DNA of 64,000 bases from Megasphaera stantonii. GTDB lineage: Bacteria; Bacillota; Negativicutes; Veillonellales; Megasphaeraceae. The position numbers and the translations under genes are program-made. The notes beneath the pieces are model-generated. The model was not told the DNA's origin. It worked only from the letters and a program-made list of their open reading frames with translations, and searched no databases. The stretch covers positions 2,108,001 to 2,172,000 of the forward strand of contig NZ_CP029462.1 in NCBI RefSeq assembly GCF_003367905.1, given 5' to 3'. Shown here in pieces: positions 7,231 through 26,300 of this stretch (positions within the stretch are counted from its first letter, which is position 1; each line of letters opens with the position of its first letter).

Positions 7231-7758
7231 ATGACAAAAGTCATTGACGTTGACCTGGGGTACAAAGAGATTATCGGCGATCTGGAACAGCTGGACGGGA
7301 AGAGCGTAGAAGCCGGCGTATTTGCCAACGCTGGAACCGAAAAGGACGGCAAGACCAAAGTGGCCGATGTGGCCTATTGGAATGAGTACGGCGTCGATAT
7401 TCCGGTTACGCCGCGGATGCGGGGGTATCTGCACACCATCGGCATTCATCTGAGCCCCAATAAGACGACGATTCATATTCCGGCCCGGCCGTTCATGCAT
7501 CAGGCGGCCGACGCCAATATGGATAAATGGGGCGACACAGCGGAACGGCTTGTCACGCTCATTCTTAACGGCATGTCCGCTGAGCAGGCACTCGAACTGC
7601 TCGGAACTCAGGCCAAGGGGGATATTCAAGCTATCTTCACGCGCGGCGACTTTGCCCCCAACTCACCGGCGACGATCGCCCGGAAAAAATCCAGTCGCCC
7701 GCTCATCGACACCGGCCGCCTGCGGAACAGTGTTGATTTTCGCATCAAGAGAGGATGA
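7231..7758 (+). CDS. Phage neck/tail completion protein
   Basis: A 175-residue protein similar in layout to HK97 gp10 and Mu virion morphogenesis families: N-terminal beta region (SVEAGVFANAG), AYWNEYG, PARPFM, and a C-terminal LIDTGRLRNSV motif frequent in these proteins. It likely joins head and tail. It ends 8 bases before the next start. Confidence 0.7.
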   Translation: MTKVIDVDLGYKEIIGDLEQLDGKSVEAGVFANAGTEKDGKTKVADVAYWNEYGVDIPVTPRMRGYLHTIGIHLSPNKTTIHIPARPFMHQAADANMDKWGDTAERLVTLILNGMSAEQALELLGTQAKGDIQAIFTRGDFAPNSPATIARKKSSRPLIDTGRLRNSVDFRIKRG

Positions 7759-8687: not shown

Positions 8688-10068
8688 TATTGACAGAATT
8701 GTCAATGTGCAAATATCGCTGAATACGACCGGCATCTCTACGGAGGGGTTCAGCACTTTATTGTGCGTCGGCCCGCATATGTATGGACTGACGCGCGTCA
8801 GCACTTACACAGACCCAAATCAAATGATTGAGGATGGTTTTTCTGCGGAAGACGCCTTGTATCATATGGTGTCCGACGCCTTCGCGCAGACGCCTTCGCC
8901 GGCGCAGGTCAAAGTCGGCCGCCAACAGGTAGACGGTTTCACCCTAAGTGTCGCTCAACTGGGCGCAGCTAGCACTTACACGCTTACCGTATCCAATGTG
9001 CTTTCGGATGGAACAATCCGAGATAAGGAATACACCTACACCAACAGTTCCGGAAGTGAATCCGATATTTTGAAAGGGATTTTACAGGCGATTACAGGCG
9101 ATAGTGATTCTGTTCTGATAGATAATGATTCACAAGCCGATGAGCCGTCGTTAACGCAGCTGCATTTGGAAGCAAAGAATCCCGGAACGGCTTTTTCTGT
9201 AAAGGTCACAAGCAATTTACAAACGGCTATGGATGACACGACAGAAAGTATCACGTTATCTATGGCCAAAATTGTGACATCTGACAGCGATTTCTACGGC
9301 GTCGCCTTGGCGTCTCGCGCTGATGAGGACATTTTGGCCATGGCTGAATGGGCCGAGGCGAATGAAAAGCTGTTCGGGACGGCGACGGCAGCTGATGGAG
9401 CTAAAAACAGCGAGGTTACAACGGACATCGGCAGTCAGCTGAAGGCGAAAAACTATTACCGGACATTCTGGTTCTATCACGCATTGGCGGCTACAGAATA
9501 TCCGGAATGCGCTATTATGGCCCGCTGCTTTGCCATTGACCCGGGCGGGGAAACATGGGCCAATAAGCAGCTTTCCAGCATTACGACGGACGGCCTGAGC
9601 GAAACGGAAGCGCTTGCCGTGCAGGGAAAAAACGGGAATACCTTCGAGGCGTTCCGGAACATCTCTATCACCCAGAATGGTAAAGTCGCCGCCGGTGAAT
9701 GGATTGACGTCATTCGCTTTCGCGACTGGCTGGCCGAGGAAATCAAAGTCAATGTTTTTAATTTACTGATTAACCGCGACAAGGTTCCGTATACCGACGC
9801 CGGCATTGCGGCCGTTGAGGCGGCTGTCCGTTCGGCGCTGACGTTGGGACAGACCCGCGGCGGCATTGCGCCGACGGAATATGACGAATCCGAGAATAAA
9901 AACCTTGGCTTTACGGTTTCAGTTCCGTTGGCTTCGACGATTTCGCCGAATCAAAAAGCCCTTCGCATTTTGAACGACGTCAAATTTACGGCACGTTTGG
10001 CCGGCGCTATTCACGTTGTCAATATTACGGGCAACCTGACCTATGAAAATCTGATTGAAGTTGCATAA
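8680..10068 (+). CDS. Contractile tail sheath protein (DUF3383)
   Basis: A 462-residue protein with the DUF3383 opening (IDRIVNVQISLNTTGISTEGF) and a C-terminus ending in ARLAGAIHVVNITGNLTYE, typical of this sheath family. It polymerises around the tube and contracts on infection, which makes the phage a myovirus. Ribosome binding site AAAGGAG lies 8 bases before ATG. Confidence 0.88.
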   Translation: MANIDRIVNVQISLNTTGISTEGFSTLLCVGPHMYGLTRVSTYTDPNQMIEDGFSAEDALYHMVSDAFAQTPSPAQVKVGRQQVDGFTLSVAQLGAASTYTLTVSNVLSDGTIRDKEYTYTNSSGSESDILKGILQAITGDSDSVLIDNDSQADEPSLTQLHLEAKNPGTAFSVKVTSNLQTAMDDTTESITLSMAKIVTSDSDFYGVALASRADEDILAMAEWAEANEKLFGTATAADGAKNSEVTTDIGSQLKAKNYYRTFWFYHALAATEYPECAIMARCFAIDPGGETWANKQLSSITTDGLSETEALAVQGKNGNTFEAFRNISITQNGKVAAGEWIDVIRFRDWLAEEIKVNVFNLLINRDKVPYTDAGIAAVEAAVRSALTLGQTRGGIAPTEYDESENKNLGFTVSVPLASTISPNQKALRILNDVKFTARLAGAIHVVNITGNLTYENLIEVA

Positions 10069-19975: not shown

Positions 19976-21001
19976 CTATTTAAGTAATTGTATGGCTTTT
20001 CGTAGTTGTCGTAGTCCTTTATGCGTGTACACTCGGTCAGTAATATCGCCGTCTGCATGTCCGAGGATTCGACGCTTTGCGTTTTCGTTGGCACCTGCAT
20101 TATCTAGCAGGGTTGCGACAGTGTGGCGGCAGTCATGCGTCGTGTGTCCGCTGGCGTGGATCAGTGACATAACATGCCCCCAAACAGTACTGTACCGGCC
20201 ATAGTTGTACGGCTGCCCGTCTGCGTCGGCGATAAGCGTCTGCCCTGGCAATATCATACGGGCCTGCACAAGCGGCAGTATACGGCTATGGATGGGGATG
20301 ATACGCAGCCCCGCAGCAGTCTTGCTTTTTGTAATACGTATGTATTGTTGACGCAGGTTGACGTCGGACTTGTCTAAATTAAGCATCTCGCTGCAACGCA
20401 TGCCGGTGTACATGAGAATAAGCACCGTATCGACGCCGGACGCATCAGCGTGTGTCCATAGTCGGTTTATTTTTTGACGGCTGAAAACTTTATGCGGCCG
20501 GACAGGCTTATTTTTTCCGAGAGTAAGCAACTCGGCATAGTTTTTATCTGCGGCTTCAATTTTGGCCGCATATTTTGACACAAGGCTGATCAGCGAGCGA
20601 ACTTTTTTGACGCTACTGTATGACAAGCCGTGCCGGCGCATGGTATCGATGACACGTTGATAATCCACATACTTGATGTCTGTAAATATCTGGGCATGTA
20701 GCGGTTGGCAATGGGCAAAGGCGTTTTTATAGCCGCAGATAGTACTATCTGCGGGCGAAGTATCGTCAATATGAGCCGGCAGCCAGCGGTAATACAATTC
20801 AGCGAATGTCATTTTATGACCTGGGAGGGAGTGATTACGATGTATTTTATTGTAGTCGGCGGCGTAGATCTCTGCTTCTATCTGAGTGCAAAAGTATTCA
20901 ATCGGTCGTTGCCTGCCGTTTTCGGTCACTACAAAAACAAACGGCCGCCGCCGGTTGCCGGATAATTTTTTGATGCTTCCATATCCATTTGGTTTTCTCA
21001 T
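19976..21001 (-). CDS. Tyrosine recombinase, probable tail-fibre shufflon invertase
   Basis: A 341-residue tyrosine recombinase. The first 60 residues form a beta-rich arm-binding region (NGYGSIKKLSGNRRRPF), followed by a core-binding domain and a catalytic domain with the full set: R in YTGMRCSEML, K in RITKSKTAAG, H-x-x-R in HDCRHTVATL, H in ILGHADG and the nucleophile Y in DRVYTHK. It lies inside the late region beside the inverted fibre tips, not at a prophage end, so an Rci-like role in inverting the tips is more likely than integration. AAAGGTGG precedes the ATG by eight bases. A dual role cannot be excluded. Confidence 0.8.
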   Translation of the reverse strand: MRKPNGYGSIKKLSGNRRRPFVFVVTENGRQRPIEYFCTQIEAEIYAADYNKIHRNHSLPGHKMTFAELYYRWLPAHIDDTSPADSTICGYKNAFAHCQPLHAQIFTDIKYVDYQRVIDTMRRHGLSYSSVKKVRSLISLVSKYAAKIEAADKNYAELLTLGKNKPVRPHKVFSRQKINRLWTHADASGVDTVLILMYTGMRCSEMLNLDKSDVNLRQQYIRITKSKTAAGLRIIPIHSRILPLVQARMILPGQTLIADADGQPYNYGRYSTVWGHVMSLIHASGHTTHDCRHTVATLLDNAGANENAKRRILGHADGDITDRVYTHKGLRQLRKAIQLLK

Positions 21002-23674: not shown

Positions 23675-24526
23675 TTACAAGGTATATTTTTCGATTGTCA
23701 ATTTTGGAATCTTAAAGAGTTCATGATCATCTACTTCGTAATCTTCCCAGCGGCGCGGGGAGTCAATCCCGTCCTTTTTGGCTATCTTGATAGCCTTTTT
23801 TATTAATACAGGGTTACAAACTCCTAAGCTGGATTCATGCTTAATCCAGTAGAGAAGGGGAACGCACATGCTTCCGTCCGGGCGGGCGATGGATGCGTCG
23901 GTCTGGAACATATCCAGCATGGCCGCTTTTAATTTTTCCGCGTCCTCGTCAGAAAAGCCGGTTTTTTGAGCAATGACTGGCGTAATACCGCCAAAGAACA
24001 TATACGCACCATAATCTATCTTAGGAAGGGACATGCCGTAGGTTTCCGGGCCGCGGCCTTCTTCGCTCGTGATATTGCCTGACCGCGTAATCTGAATATC
24101 ACGAATAGTCACAATATCCAAAGAGCGCCCCATGGACATAGTAACAGGGCCTTTAACCCCAGAAATCAAGGTGCTTTTAAAGGGGAGCATGGAAAATACC
24201 ATGCCGAAGGCTCGGACATCAAAAAACTCACGACAGAGAACGGATATTGCGTCTGTTTCTTTTTTCTTGCTTAGTAATTTACGAACTTCCGGAAGGTTTG
24301 CACGTTCCTTTACATTGATACATCCGTCGTCAATACGGTCATGGGTCTGCAATAAAATTCGTTCCCCGGCAAGTTGCAGCCGATTACGGATTTTTCTCTT
24401 TATGCAAACGTCCGTAATTTCTCCGTAGCCGTCGTAATCTGTCCGGGGGCGATTACCTAACAGCGGATCGCCGTTCGGGTTGCAGTTCGTAGCGGATATG
24501 ATTCCAATGAAATTGATTTTATTCAT
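23675..24526 (-). CDS. cas7: Solitary Cas7 (Csd2/Csh2-like, type I-C/I-B family)
   Basis: A 283-residue Cas7-family protein. Diagnostic features are FIGIISATNCNPNGDP at residues 6-21, GNRPRTD, EITDVCIKRKIRNRLQ at about 36-51, FDVRAFGMVF, KGPVTMSMGRS, and TYGMSLPKIDYGAYMFFGG. Cas7 normally forms the crRNA-binding backbone of type I Cascade. No cas3, cas5, cas8, cas1, cas2 or array is present here. It is the last gene of a three-gene minus-strand phage-linked operon, overlapping the previous gene by four bases. It is intact, so a dedicated role such as poisoning host Cascade is more likely than a relic. Confidence 0.85.
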   Translation of the reverse strand: MNKINFIGIISATNCNPNGDPLLGNRPRTDYDGYGEITDVCIKRKIRNRLQLAGERILLQTHDRIDDGCINVKERANLPEVRKLLSKKKETDAISVLCREFFDVRAFGMVFSMLPFKSTLISGVKGPVTMSMGRSLDIVTIRDIQITRSGNITSEEGRGPETYGMSLPKIDYGAYMFFGGITPVIAQKTGFSDEDAEKLKAAMLDMFQTDASIARPDGSMCVPLLYWIKHESSLGVCNPVLIKKAIKIAKKDGIDSPRRWEDYEVDDHELFKIPKLTIEKYTL

Positions 24527-24945
24527 TGTTCTTCCTCCTCGGCAGTAATTTCGCTGTATTCTTTGCTGTTAATTTCGTAGTCAATACTTGTGTCGAGGCC
24601 ATATAACAATTCATTTACCAGGCGGACACGCTGGACGATATTCAAAGCCTCAATTTTTTTGTATAACTCATTATCTGTAGAGCACCCAAAGTAATCCAAC
24701 ACATCTAAATGCAAGTCCTTGATTTTTGAAGCGGTGACTTTCGAGCCCCAAAGAATATTATATAGGACTTCTTTTTCTCCGTCGGAAAACTCCGGGAGAG
24801 GTGAGAGCGTCATCAAAATTTGATAGCTGTTGACGATCAGCCCCAGCGCGCGGCTAAAGCCGCCATTTCGACGGCTGTCGGCCTTTGTTTGCTCAGCAAG
24901 CAGTTCTAACGGCTCGTTCATATAAATTTTCTTGACTTTTCCCAT
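24523..24945 (-). CDS. Unknown protein co-transcribed with solitary cas7
   Basis: A 140-residue protein, with AGGAGGAATCAA before its ATG; an upstream frame extension is rejected. Residues 1-45 (MGKVKKIYMNEPLELLAEQT) could be a short DNA- or RNA-contacting N-terminus; the rest is helical and acidic, ending in EITAEEEEQ. It sits in the position a small Cascade subunit might hold, but shows no recognisable similarity. Candidate anti-CRISPR or Cas7 partner; function unknown. Confidence 0.65.
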   Translation of the reverse strand: MGKVKKIYMNEPLELLAEQTKADSRRNGGFSRALGLIVNSYQILMTLSPLPEFSDGEKEVLYNILWGSKVTASKIKDLHLDVLDYFGCSTDNELYKKIEALNIVQRVRLVNELLYGLDTSIDYEINSKEYSEITAEEEEQ

Positions 24946-24971: not shown

Positions 24972-25003
24972 AAAAAGCGGCATTTCTGCCGCTTGAATAC
25001 TTA
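24972..25003 (-). terminator. Possible attenuating hairpin within cas7 operon
   Basis: On the minus strand AAGCGGCAGAAATGCCGCTT is followed by TTTTTTG between the first and second genes. The perfect eight-base stem and T-run resemble a terminator, so downstream cas7 expression may be reduced relative to the first gene. Confidence 0.7.
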
Positions 25004-25261
25004 CTAATCGTCGACCAGCTGGTCGACTTCTTCCGGGGGCATTTCTTCGCTATAAACTTCGACAGCAAAGAACTTTTTCCCCTCGGCAGAAACCATATCC
25101 TCATCGACAGGGTCAGGGATTTCCTCACAACCTAAGTCATCCATAACCTTGTCAAAACCAAGAATATCCCATCGTACTGGGTGTAAACTTTCATCTACCC
25201 AGCCAAGATATACGTCGTCACCATGGCTATTTCTGCCGAAAACCTTATAAAATTTTCTCAT
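25004..25261 (-). CDS. Small acidic protein, first gene of cas7 operon
   Basis: An 85-residue very acidic protein (about a third D/E in the C-terminal half, e.g. EIPDPVDEDM and EEMPPEEVDQLVDD). ATG 25261 follows AAAGGAGGAATTAAA; a longer upstream frame lacks a binding site. Acidic small proteins can mimic DNA and are frequent among anti-CRISPRs, but no family is recognised. A hairpin lies in the 58-base gap to the next gene. Confidence 0.65.
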   Translation of the reverse strand: MRKFYKVFGRNSHGDDVYLGWVDESLHPVRWDILGFDKVMDDLGCEEIPDPVDEDMVSAEGKKFFAVEVYSEEMPPEEVDQLVDD

Positions 25262-25325: not shown

Positions 25326-25393
25326 ATTATAACACTTTATGGGCATAAAATCAATAGTTTATGCCCATAAGATTAGTAATTTATGGGCATAAA
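25326..25393 (-). promoter_or_regulatory. Repressible promoter with three phased operators
   Basis: Minus strand: -35 TTGATT at 25349-25354, 17-base spacer, -10 TATAAT at 25326-25331. TTTATGGGCATAAA, an almost perfect palindrome, lies in the spacer (25336-25349), and again at 25358-25370 (inverted, less the last base) and 25380-25393. Centres are 22 bp apart, two helical turns, as for cooperative repressor binding. It drives the cas7 operon. The repressor gene is not in the window; a prophage lysogeny repressor is plausible. Confidence 0.85.
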
Positions 25394-25426
25394 CGAAAAA
25401 TAGGTAAAATAAGAGGCAATTACCCC

Positions 25427-25462
25427 GAGTGTTTTTCTAAGCTGCCTATGCGGCAGACACTC
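25427..25462 (-). ncRNA. Solitary type I-F-like CRISPR repeat, candidate repeat-mimic RNA
   Basis: Minus strand: CTGCC, loop GCATA, GGCAG, then CTTAGAAA (25434-25456), matching the type I-F repeat hairpin and 3' handle base for base except the variable loop position. It is enclosed by a second stem GAGTGT/ACACTC. No second repeat or spacer exists nearby. A possible promoter (TTTACT at 25502-25507, TATACG at 25479-25484, 17-base spacing) would start transcription about ten bases before the outer stem. Solitary repeat units in phages are known to act as RNA anti-CRISPRs; that role is inferred here. Confidence 0.7.
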
Positions 25463-25623
25463 ACAAAGATGCACGCCCCGTATATTTAAAATACGAAATT
25501 AAGTAAAGAGTAACGGCCGGGCCGAATGCTAACGGTGATGAAGCTCATACAGCAAAAAGGAAGACGTGTAGGAGTTGGGGAGCAGAGGCAAAAAACAGGC
25601 AAAAAAAGTTGAAAAAACGAGAA
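25462..25623. other. Non-coding gap between accessory island and rpsD terminator
   Basis: About 160 bases without a supported gene. It holds the possible promoter of the solitary repeat RNA at its left side. The prophage right attachment site should lie here or slightly left, but no core sequence can be named without the other end. Confidence 0.4.
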
Positions 25624-25667
25624 AAAAGCGGAAATCCCATATTTGGGAAATCCGCTTTTTTGCTGCA
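25624..25667 (-). terminator. rpsD terminator
   Basis: AAAAGCGGAAATCCC and GGGAAATCCGCTTTT form a stem with a small internal mismatch, flanked by A- and T-runs. It lies 46 bases after the rpsD stop on the minus strand and may also stop incoming plus-strand transcripts. Confidence 0.8.
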
Positions 25668-25712: not shown

Positions 25713-26300
25713 CTACTTGGAGTACAATTCGACGATGAGTGTTTCGTTGATTTCTACAGGAATTTCGGAGCGTTCGGGCATACGTGTCAGCGTGCCTTCG
25801 AAGCCGTCGAAGTTCTTTTCGATGTAGGGAACATCGAAGGTTTTCAATTCCTGGAAGGATTTTTTGTACATTTCGTTAGCGCGGGAAGCTTCCTTCAGCG
25901 TGATAACGGAACCTACTTTTACGTGTGCCGACGGAATGTCGCAACGTTTGCCGTTTACCAAGATGTGGCCGTGGTTGACCATCTGGCGGGCCTGACGAAT
26001 GGAGTTTGCAAAACCGATACGGTATACCAGGTTATCCAAACGGCATTCCAACAATTTCAGCATGTTTTCGCCAGTAACGCCTTCCATCTTCTTGGCTTTA
26101 TCATAATACCGGACAAACTGGCGTTCGAGCAAATTGTAGTATGCGCGAAGCTTCTGTTTTTCCAGTAACTGTGTGCCGTATTCAGACATCTTTTTCTGAC
26201 GCTGTTCTTTCTTCACACGTTTTAATGCCTTAGGATGTCCGTACACATTGAGTCCGAACCGGCGACATTGCTTAAAACGTGCTTCTCTCCTCGTTGCCAT
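25713..26300 (-). CDS. rpsD: 30S ribosomal protein S4
   Basis: A 195-residue S4 primary 16S rRNA-binding protein. The N-terminal domain and the S4 RNA-binding domain ([25 protein letters not shown], split here: [14 protein letters not shown] then [20 protein letters not shown]) are intact. The zinc-binding cysteine cluster is reduced to one cysteine (KQCRRFG), the C-minus form. It is monocistronic with its own strong promoter and terminator, as in Bacillus, where S4 is autoregulated; a leader structure could not be confirmed. Confidence 0.96.

Follow-up and report, generated by a model that had tools for sequence, protein, structure and literature searches.

Near the right end of a prophage in Megasphaera stantonii lies a single copy of a type I-F CRISPR repeat with no array around it, and the question is what such a solitary repeat unit (SRU) does there. 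The original prediction, made within the window (the whole stretch of 64,000 nucleotides that was analysed), took it for an RNA anti-CRISPR (Racr), as known for solitary repeats of phages. We consider it probable that the SRU is a Racr-type candidate directed against the type I-F1 system of the host, placed in an anti-CRISPR island at the right end of the prophage. The idea gained a cognate I-F gene set in the host and a location at a prophage end; in the wider context, an AcrIE10-family gene in the same cluster, host I-C spacers against the prophage and a parallel locus in a second genome of the genus (G013) count for it, while the lack of a matching spacer in the host I-F array counts against it. 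The parts of the unit are as follows.

Positions 25427 to 25462, minus strand: SRU, candidate Racr; 25457 to 25462 and 25427 to 25432 are the arms of a 6-bp outer stem.
Positions 25434 to 25456, minus strand: 23-nt core of the SRU, identical to I-F array repeats.
Positions 25456 to 25442, then 25441 to 25434, minus strand: stem-loop of the SRU, followed by the 8-nt handle CTTAGAAA.

Read on the minus strand from 25462 to 25427, the SRU has the sequence GAGTGT-CTGCCGCATAGGCAG-CTTAGAAA-A-ACACTC, and the identity of its core bears out the claim that the hairpin and the 3′ part of the I-F repeat are reproduced. The host array repeat, GTTATCTGCCGCATAGGCAGTTTAGAAA, is shared at 24 of 28 nt, with all 15 stem-loop positions identical. 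A core pattern with one position open matched once in the window at up to three mismatches and never in 100 shuffles, and a looser pattern with four positions open matched once in the entire 2.65-Mb, single-contig host genome. The original description of a single repeat without an array was correct: there was no second degenerate I-F repeat near the SRU, the runner-up 28-mer in the window reaching 17/28. A search with one I-C repeat variant at up to three mismatches found no I-C repeat in the window. The unit is intergenic on the mobile element, between orf85 and rpsD, and no ORF of at least 60 aa overlaps it. The conserved C6-G20 pair, given as a criterion for Racr stem-loops in the part of PMC10651486 used here, was present by sequence check. 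By analogy with the same part of that source, the Cas6f cut is predicted between 25442 and 25441.

The comparison with I-F repeats of relatives, suggested at the outset, showed the same 23-mer recurring at a spacing of 60–61 nt in their arrays, for example in G001 (87 copies of the motif) and G028 (123 copies). The motif was present in 6 of 60 genomes, the host's own included, and the identical 23-mer also occurred in several viral contigs. Since the 23-mer recurs in the arrays of relatives and in viral contigs, the SRU carries a genuine I-F repeat sequence, and the solitary I-F repeat at 25427 to 25462 is confirmed. Its flanks were shared neither by the other viral contigs with this 23-mer nor by any relative searched, which was counted against the Racr reading.

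The host carries two systems to which such an island could answer. The type I-F1 set comprises cas1, a full-length cas2-3 (1114-aa open frame), csy1 to csy4 and an array of 28 repeats, one of which has an altered loop base; csy1 was a clear Cas8f in PADLOC (1.8e-85) and scored 159.4 with the NCBIfam model, slightly below the cut-off of 169.4. The absence of a host I-F system in related strains, which had been named as grounds for dropping the proposal, was not found, and the statement that I-F is uncommon in Firmicutes does not hold for this genus, as 6 of 15 of its genomes, the host's own included, held at least 13 I-F repeat copies. The type I-C set comprises cas3 (853-aa open frame), cas5, cas8c, cas7, cas4, cas1 and cas2 with large arrays; cas3 scored 97.2 against a core cut-off of 102.45, on a scanned piece clipped at the fetch border. 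An IS30-family transposase gene lies between the host I-C arrays (L063:6426-7193).

The prophage was delimited by two features.

Positions 25714 to 25739: 3′ end of rpsD, proposed attR, with its second copy (25/26) at genome positions 2087373 to 2087398.
Positions 19976 to 21001, minus strand: prophage integrase.

The 26-nt repeat pair of the rpsD 3′ end probably bounds a prophage of about 46 kb with portal, head, sheath, tape measure, baseplate, holin, endolysin and integrase genes; its right end is about 250 bp from the SRU. A putative terminator, an inverted repeat with T-tracts at 25622 to 25661 between the SRU and this end, was read as that of rpsD. No match to the right end was found among phages or plasmids.

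Three of the 58 host I-C spacers extracted matched the prophage, with 2, 3 and 3 mismatches and TTC beside each; a looser motif gave 72 repeats, and the spacer set is therefore partial.

Positions 7565 to 7598, plus strand: host I-C spacer match; spacer positions 1 and 2 are mismatched, TTC adjoining.
Genome positions 2102315 to 2102349 and 2098686 to 2098719: the other two host I-C spacer matches, 3 mismatches each.

TTC is the PAM of type I-C, and every sixth spacer position is often unread in type I systems. The mismatches of the three matches fell at positions 1 and 2, at 15, 24 and 30, and at 3, 5 and 9; in the middle match, position 15 was the sole mismatch outside multiples of six. Two of the three differ near the PAM, so targeting may be weakened. 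A living lysogen that carries such spacers suggests either I-C inhibition or tolerance. None of the 27 host I-F spacers matched the prophage at up to 7 mismatches, so no I-F pressure on it from its own host was seen. At the same threshold, a sample of 282 spacers from relatives, in which the I-C ones were crudely cut, gave no match, and neither did the reversed controls.

On the minus strand, the SRU is followed in order by a promoter-like pair with operator-like sites, orf85, a terminator-like hairpin, orf140 and cas7.

Positions 25380 to 25393: operator-like site three, identical to the first.
Positions 25358 to 25371: operator-like site two, opposite orientation, 13/14.
Positions 25336 to 25349: first of the three operator-like sites, 14-mer TTTATGGGCATAAA, mostly within the promoter spacer.
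Positions 25326 to 25354, minus strand: promoter-like TTGATT-17-TATAAT, 10/12, with TG before the second hexamer, preceding the downstream genes.
Positions 25004 to 25261, minus strand: orf85, acidic (23 D/E, 8 K/R, pI 4.2).
Positions 24975 to 24994, minus strand: terminator-like hairpin in the gap between orf85 and the AcrIE10-family gene.
Positions 24523 to 24945, minus strand: orf140, encoding a distant member of the AcrIE10 family; stop codon overlapping the cas7 start.
Positions 23675 to 24526, minus strand: full-length orphan type I-C Cas7 (Csd2), 283 aa.

Shuffles of the region contained on average 1.7 sites as good as the TTGATT-17-TATAAT pair. The orf85 product had no match in PDB, PHROGs or Pfam and could be an additional inhibitor.

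The relationship of orf140 to AcrIE10 emerged from a profile. A single-sequence search gave only a weak AcrIE10 match (E 0.19), and a nine-member profile retrieved four AcrIE10 sequences at E 9.2e-10 to 2e-9, the next, unrelated hit being at 0.72; one of the four, 8ji9_D, is labelled 'Uncharacterized protein' in the profile table and AcrIE10 in the structure search. The profile was built from 9 of 12 genome matches, the host's own included, leaving out the weak L203 to L205, which tblastn did not place, and the AcrIE10 sequences align to its positions 10–111 or 12–111 of 112. The alignment-based model of orf140 reached a pLDDT of 72 (the single-sequence model was poor, at 54); Foldseek placed AcrIE10 at the top with probability 1.00 and E values of only 0.011–0.054, and VIA gave it Z scores of 9.9–10.4, the next row being at 4.2. 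Rows at or below this value were taken as chance. Since VIA cautions that helical folds with Z below about 13 may reflect a common arrangement, the profile is the stronger test of homology. The protein thus resembles AcrIE10 (PDB 8ji9, 9m71, 9m7t, 9uer) over nearly the full length by profile and in fold, but the structural alignment gives an identity of no more than 22%, the aligned relatives lack its C-terminal tail of about 25 residues, and, in contrast to the I-E assignment of AcrIE10, the systems looked for and found in the host are I-F and I-C.

According to the part of PMC13131331 used here, AcrIE10 binds Cas7e and blocks both Cas7-Cas7 contact and crRNA loading. Structure 9m7t is titled as a DNA complex; DNA binding may thus be a further activity of the family, with orf140 as a possible repressor at the operator-like sites. 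Matches of orf140 also included phrog_14350, to which PHROGs assigns no function. Relatives annotated as hypothetical occur in Paenibacillus phage Heath (L206; also in Halcyone and Scottie) at 40% identity and in Streptococcus phage Javan178 (L207) at 31.5%.

The second neighbour is a clear type I-C Cas7, with 239.8 bits and E 3.8e-71 against TIGR02589 (cut-off 182.25), matches to solved I-C Cas7 chains (PDB 7kha, 9jhb, 8g9s) and 46% identity to the host Cas7c. The original prediction of a solitary cas7 beside the SRU therefore held as to its isolation and not as to its presumed type; being I-C, the protein answers to the other system of the host and not to the I-F RNA. A tblastn search with 11 host proteins (Cas5f, 6f, 7f and 8f of I-F; Cas1 to Cas5, Cas7 and Cas8 of I-C) found no other cas gene in the prophage. 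Hence the phage Cas7 has no cas5c/cas8c operon there, the company that serves as a criterion for an I-C Cas7, whereas a cas8c match lay in the same short locus as the host Cas7c and 10 of 13 Cas7 proteins of relatives. Of 62 positions that are near-invariant among 14 other Cas7 proteins it retains 57; when these 14 were left out in turn, the omitted protein missed at most 3 of 62–64. Unlike Csd2 of CRISPR loci, it is an orphan, and five near-invariant positions are changed as aligned; among these is the K of the MGxK motif, otherwise invariant, with a one-residue insertion at that place. Close patterns found no relative in the genome contigs and, in the viral contigs, only a stretch identical to the window. 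Cas7 relatives were present in 4 of 50,697 records of the phage collection; none was accepted as an orphan, three having cas4, cas1 and cas2 matches and the fourth a cas3 match.

These neighbours may have nothing to do with inhibition. That Cas7 is a passenger and orf140 a mere DNA-binding autorepressor is a possibility of some weight, if a doubtful one, and it is compatible with the SRU being a Racr: structure 9m7t is titled as a DNA complex, operator-like repeats occupy the promoter, and Acr homology is no proof of Acr activity. The full length of Cas7, its conservation at near-invariant positions, the overlap of its start with the orf140 stop and the three I-C spacers that match the prophage argue the other way.

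The SRU itself is framed by weak expression signals.

Positions 25479 to 25507, minus strand: weak promoter-like pair TTTACT-17-TATACG, 8/12, read by eye; an RNA start would be expected near 25472.
Positions 25413 to 25426, minus strand: weak terminator-like hairpin directly after the SRU, from scan and fold.

The weak promoter of the original prediction was found by eye, and the promoter scan did not report it. In the predicted fold of the RNA, a small hairpin at the 5′ end is followed by the SRU, enclosed by its outer stem, and then by the weak terminator-like hairpin. The enclosing GAGTGT/ACACTC stem does fold as had been claimed, the 36-mer reaching -13.2 kcal/mol (z -3.2), and its significance is marginal: 52 of 5000 shuffled flanks added a 6-bp outer stem to the repeat hairpin, as did 9 of 542 array repeats (overlapping loci included) and, among the matches listed, 1 of 30 other solitary repeats, three of which came from genomes and the rest from viral contigs. 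The stem of the SRU is thus only slightly above chance. As a general trait of solitary repeats it was not supported, given that 1 in 30 among the matches listed.

Other solitary I-F repeats showed features of their own. In the viral contigs L139 and L169, the 5′ flank can form 7 bp with part of the 8-nt handle of the same repeat (in L169 only when G-U pairs are counted), which could hide the handle. In four different viral contigs (L004, L005, L007, L018), one and the same solitary I-F repeat recurs, and its flanks are identical among them.

A CRISPR-array remnant, or a repeat captured by recombination and drifting without function in the prophage, would also leave a single copy with a weak promoter and no match among 27 host I-F spacers, and a remnant-like case with two repeats was seen in G003. 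Against such an origin stand an intact 23-nt core between flanks and five initial repeat positions that depart from the host repeat, the lack of a second degenerate repeat nearby, the absence of cas5f, 6f, 7f and 8f from the prophage, and the small cluster that the SRU shares with the AcrIE10-family gene; we regard this origin as improbable. Much less likely still is a crRNA-like guide, in which the handle CTTAGAAA left by Cas6f and the sequence downstream would load a Csy complex and repress or cut another target. The canonical 8-nt handle is intact, and repeat-like sequences take part in Cas-dependent repression according to the part of PMC10651486 used here, but there is no second repeat to form the crRNA 3′ end, and the 19-nt start of the would-be spacer has no exact match in the viral contigs searched and takes in one arm of the outer stem as well as some of the terminator-like hairpin. 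A chance resemblance of an ordinary terminator or attachment-site hairpin to the repeat is scarcely credible despite the terminator-like hairpin directly behind the SRU and the att site about 250 bp off, since no T-run immediately follows the SRU hairpin, the att core is elsewhere, at 25714 to 25739, the shuffles gave no match, and relatives with many copies hold the 23-mer at regular spacing in arrays.

The preferred reading remains that of a Racr-type candidate against the I-F1 system. We infer transcription, capture by Cas6f, inhibition and a role for each protein. A short minus-strand RNA of about 60–70 nt, from about 25472 to about 25405, would show the exact I-F stem-loop of the host to Cas6f, and a cut product without a usable crRNA layout would tie up Cas6f and Cas7f. 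The genes downstream of the SRU would counter the second host system, I-C. The AcrIE10-family protein would act as a Cas7 blocker, as its known relative does, and possibly as an autorepressor at the operator-like sites; the orphan Cas7 would enter or starve the host I-C Cascade.

Among the closest known cases is RacrIF1. In the part of PMC10651486 used here, Cas6f binds this RNA and cuts it, and the product upstream of the cut carries a Cas7f filament without Cas5f or Cas8f, so that Cascade is not formed; Racr candidates are also described there as adjoining acr genes. The SRU shares with Racrs a solitary I-F repeat in a prophage, an I-F host, an intact Cas6f stem-loop with a C-G foot and an acr-family neighbour. 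It differs in its marginal outer stem, weak promoter and short predicted leader; leader and stem are predicted to give about 31 nt upstream of the cut, as against about 70–76 nt for RacrIF1 in the same part of PMC10651486. The short leader and weak promoter make a simple copy of the RacrIF1 mechanism less likely, and the 8-nt handle left intact after the cut was also counted against the Racr reading. A further difference from known Racrs is the cluster shared with an orphan Cas7 of another subtype.

A more far-reaching proposal is that one island disarms two CRISPR systems by RNA and protein mimicry centred on Cas7 filament assembly; we put it forward as speculation that is unlikely to hold in full. 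A repeat-mimic RNA would act against I-F, and a Cas7 decoy with a Cas7-binding AcrIE10-family partner against I-C. In the boldest version, the outer stem would hold the cut handle and hairpin together as a spacer-less decoy crRNA, one end of which would capture Cas5f/Cas8f and the other Cas6f, so that the capture would go beyond Cas6f and Cas7f. A lone homologue of a Cascade subunit on a phage has a precedent: Katz et al., writing in 2024 on viral cas genes, reportedly describe AcrIB3 as a Cas5-mimic anti-CRISPR. The island differs from AcrIB3 in using Cas7 and not Cas5, in facing I-C and not I-B, in the repeat-mimic RNA alongside, and in that its inhibitor role is a candidate one. A Cas5-like Acr displaces Cas5 according to the part of PMC13131331 used here.

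A similar arrangement occurs in G013, of the same genus, where a prophage-like region that includes endolysin and tail-fibre genes holds a relative of orf140. About 0.6 kb downstream of this relative, on the same strand and beyond an HNH-like gene, there is a solitary I-C repeat; a 12/12 promoter match precedes it, and a 20-bp terminator hairpin comes after it (fold z -9.6).

L208 positions 9570 to 9730 (G013:C4), minus strand: promoter, solitary I-C repeat unit and terminator.

The 3′ part of this repeat has 23 further copies, on another contig. The locus is a second, better-formed Racr candidate. Three repeat motifs were sought at 13 loci with orf140 relatives outside the window, from 11 genomes and 2 phage records, and this locus alone had a convincing solitary repeat, a scarcity that counts against the island reading; in L201 and L206, loose motif matches near the relatives lacked the remainder of a repeat on inspection by eye and were discounted. 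Single I-F repeats elsewhere were not counted as support: that of G007 lies within an I-F cas locus, the ORF lists around those of G006 and G025, inspected by eye, showed no clear phage context, and that of G048 was seen as sequence alone. The AcrIE10-family profile, run on the ORFs of the other solitary-repeat loci, the prophage, G006, G007 and G025, had no hit other than orf140 itself and the relatives of it in L209 and L210.

Racrs are known already, as are Cas-derived Acrs, and the island appears to combine both in one prophage; a literature search found no published locus that joins an SRU with an orphan Cas7. Through its match to orf140, phrog_14350 may be AcrIE10-like, which suggests a function for that family. 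The I-C spacers against the prophage supply a reason for I-C inhibition. According to the part used here of a 2024 review (PMC11656645), viruses widely took CRISPR RNA pieces as inhibitors and apparently, with exceptions, not Cas proteins, for reasons called an enigma. With an island matched to two systems of the same host, the question of RNA versus protein mimics would become testable in one strain.
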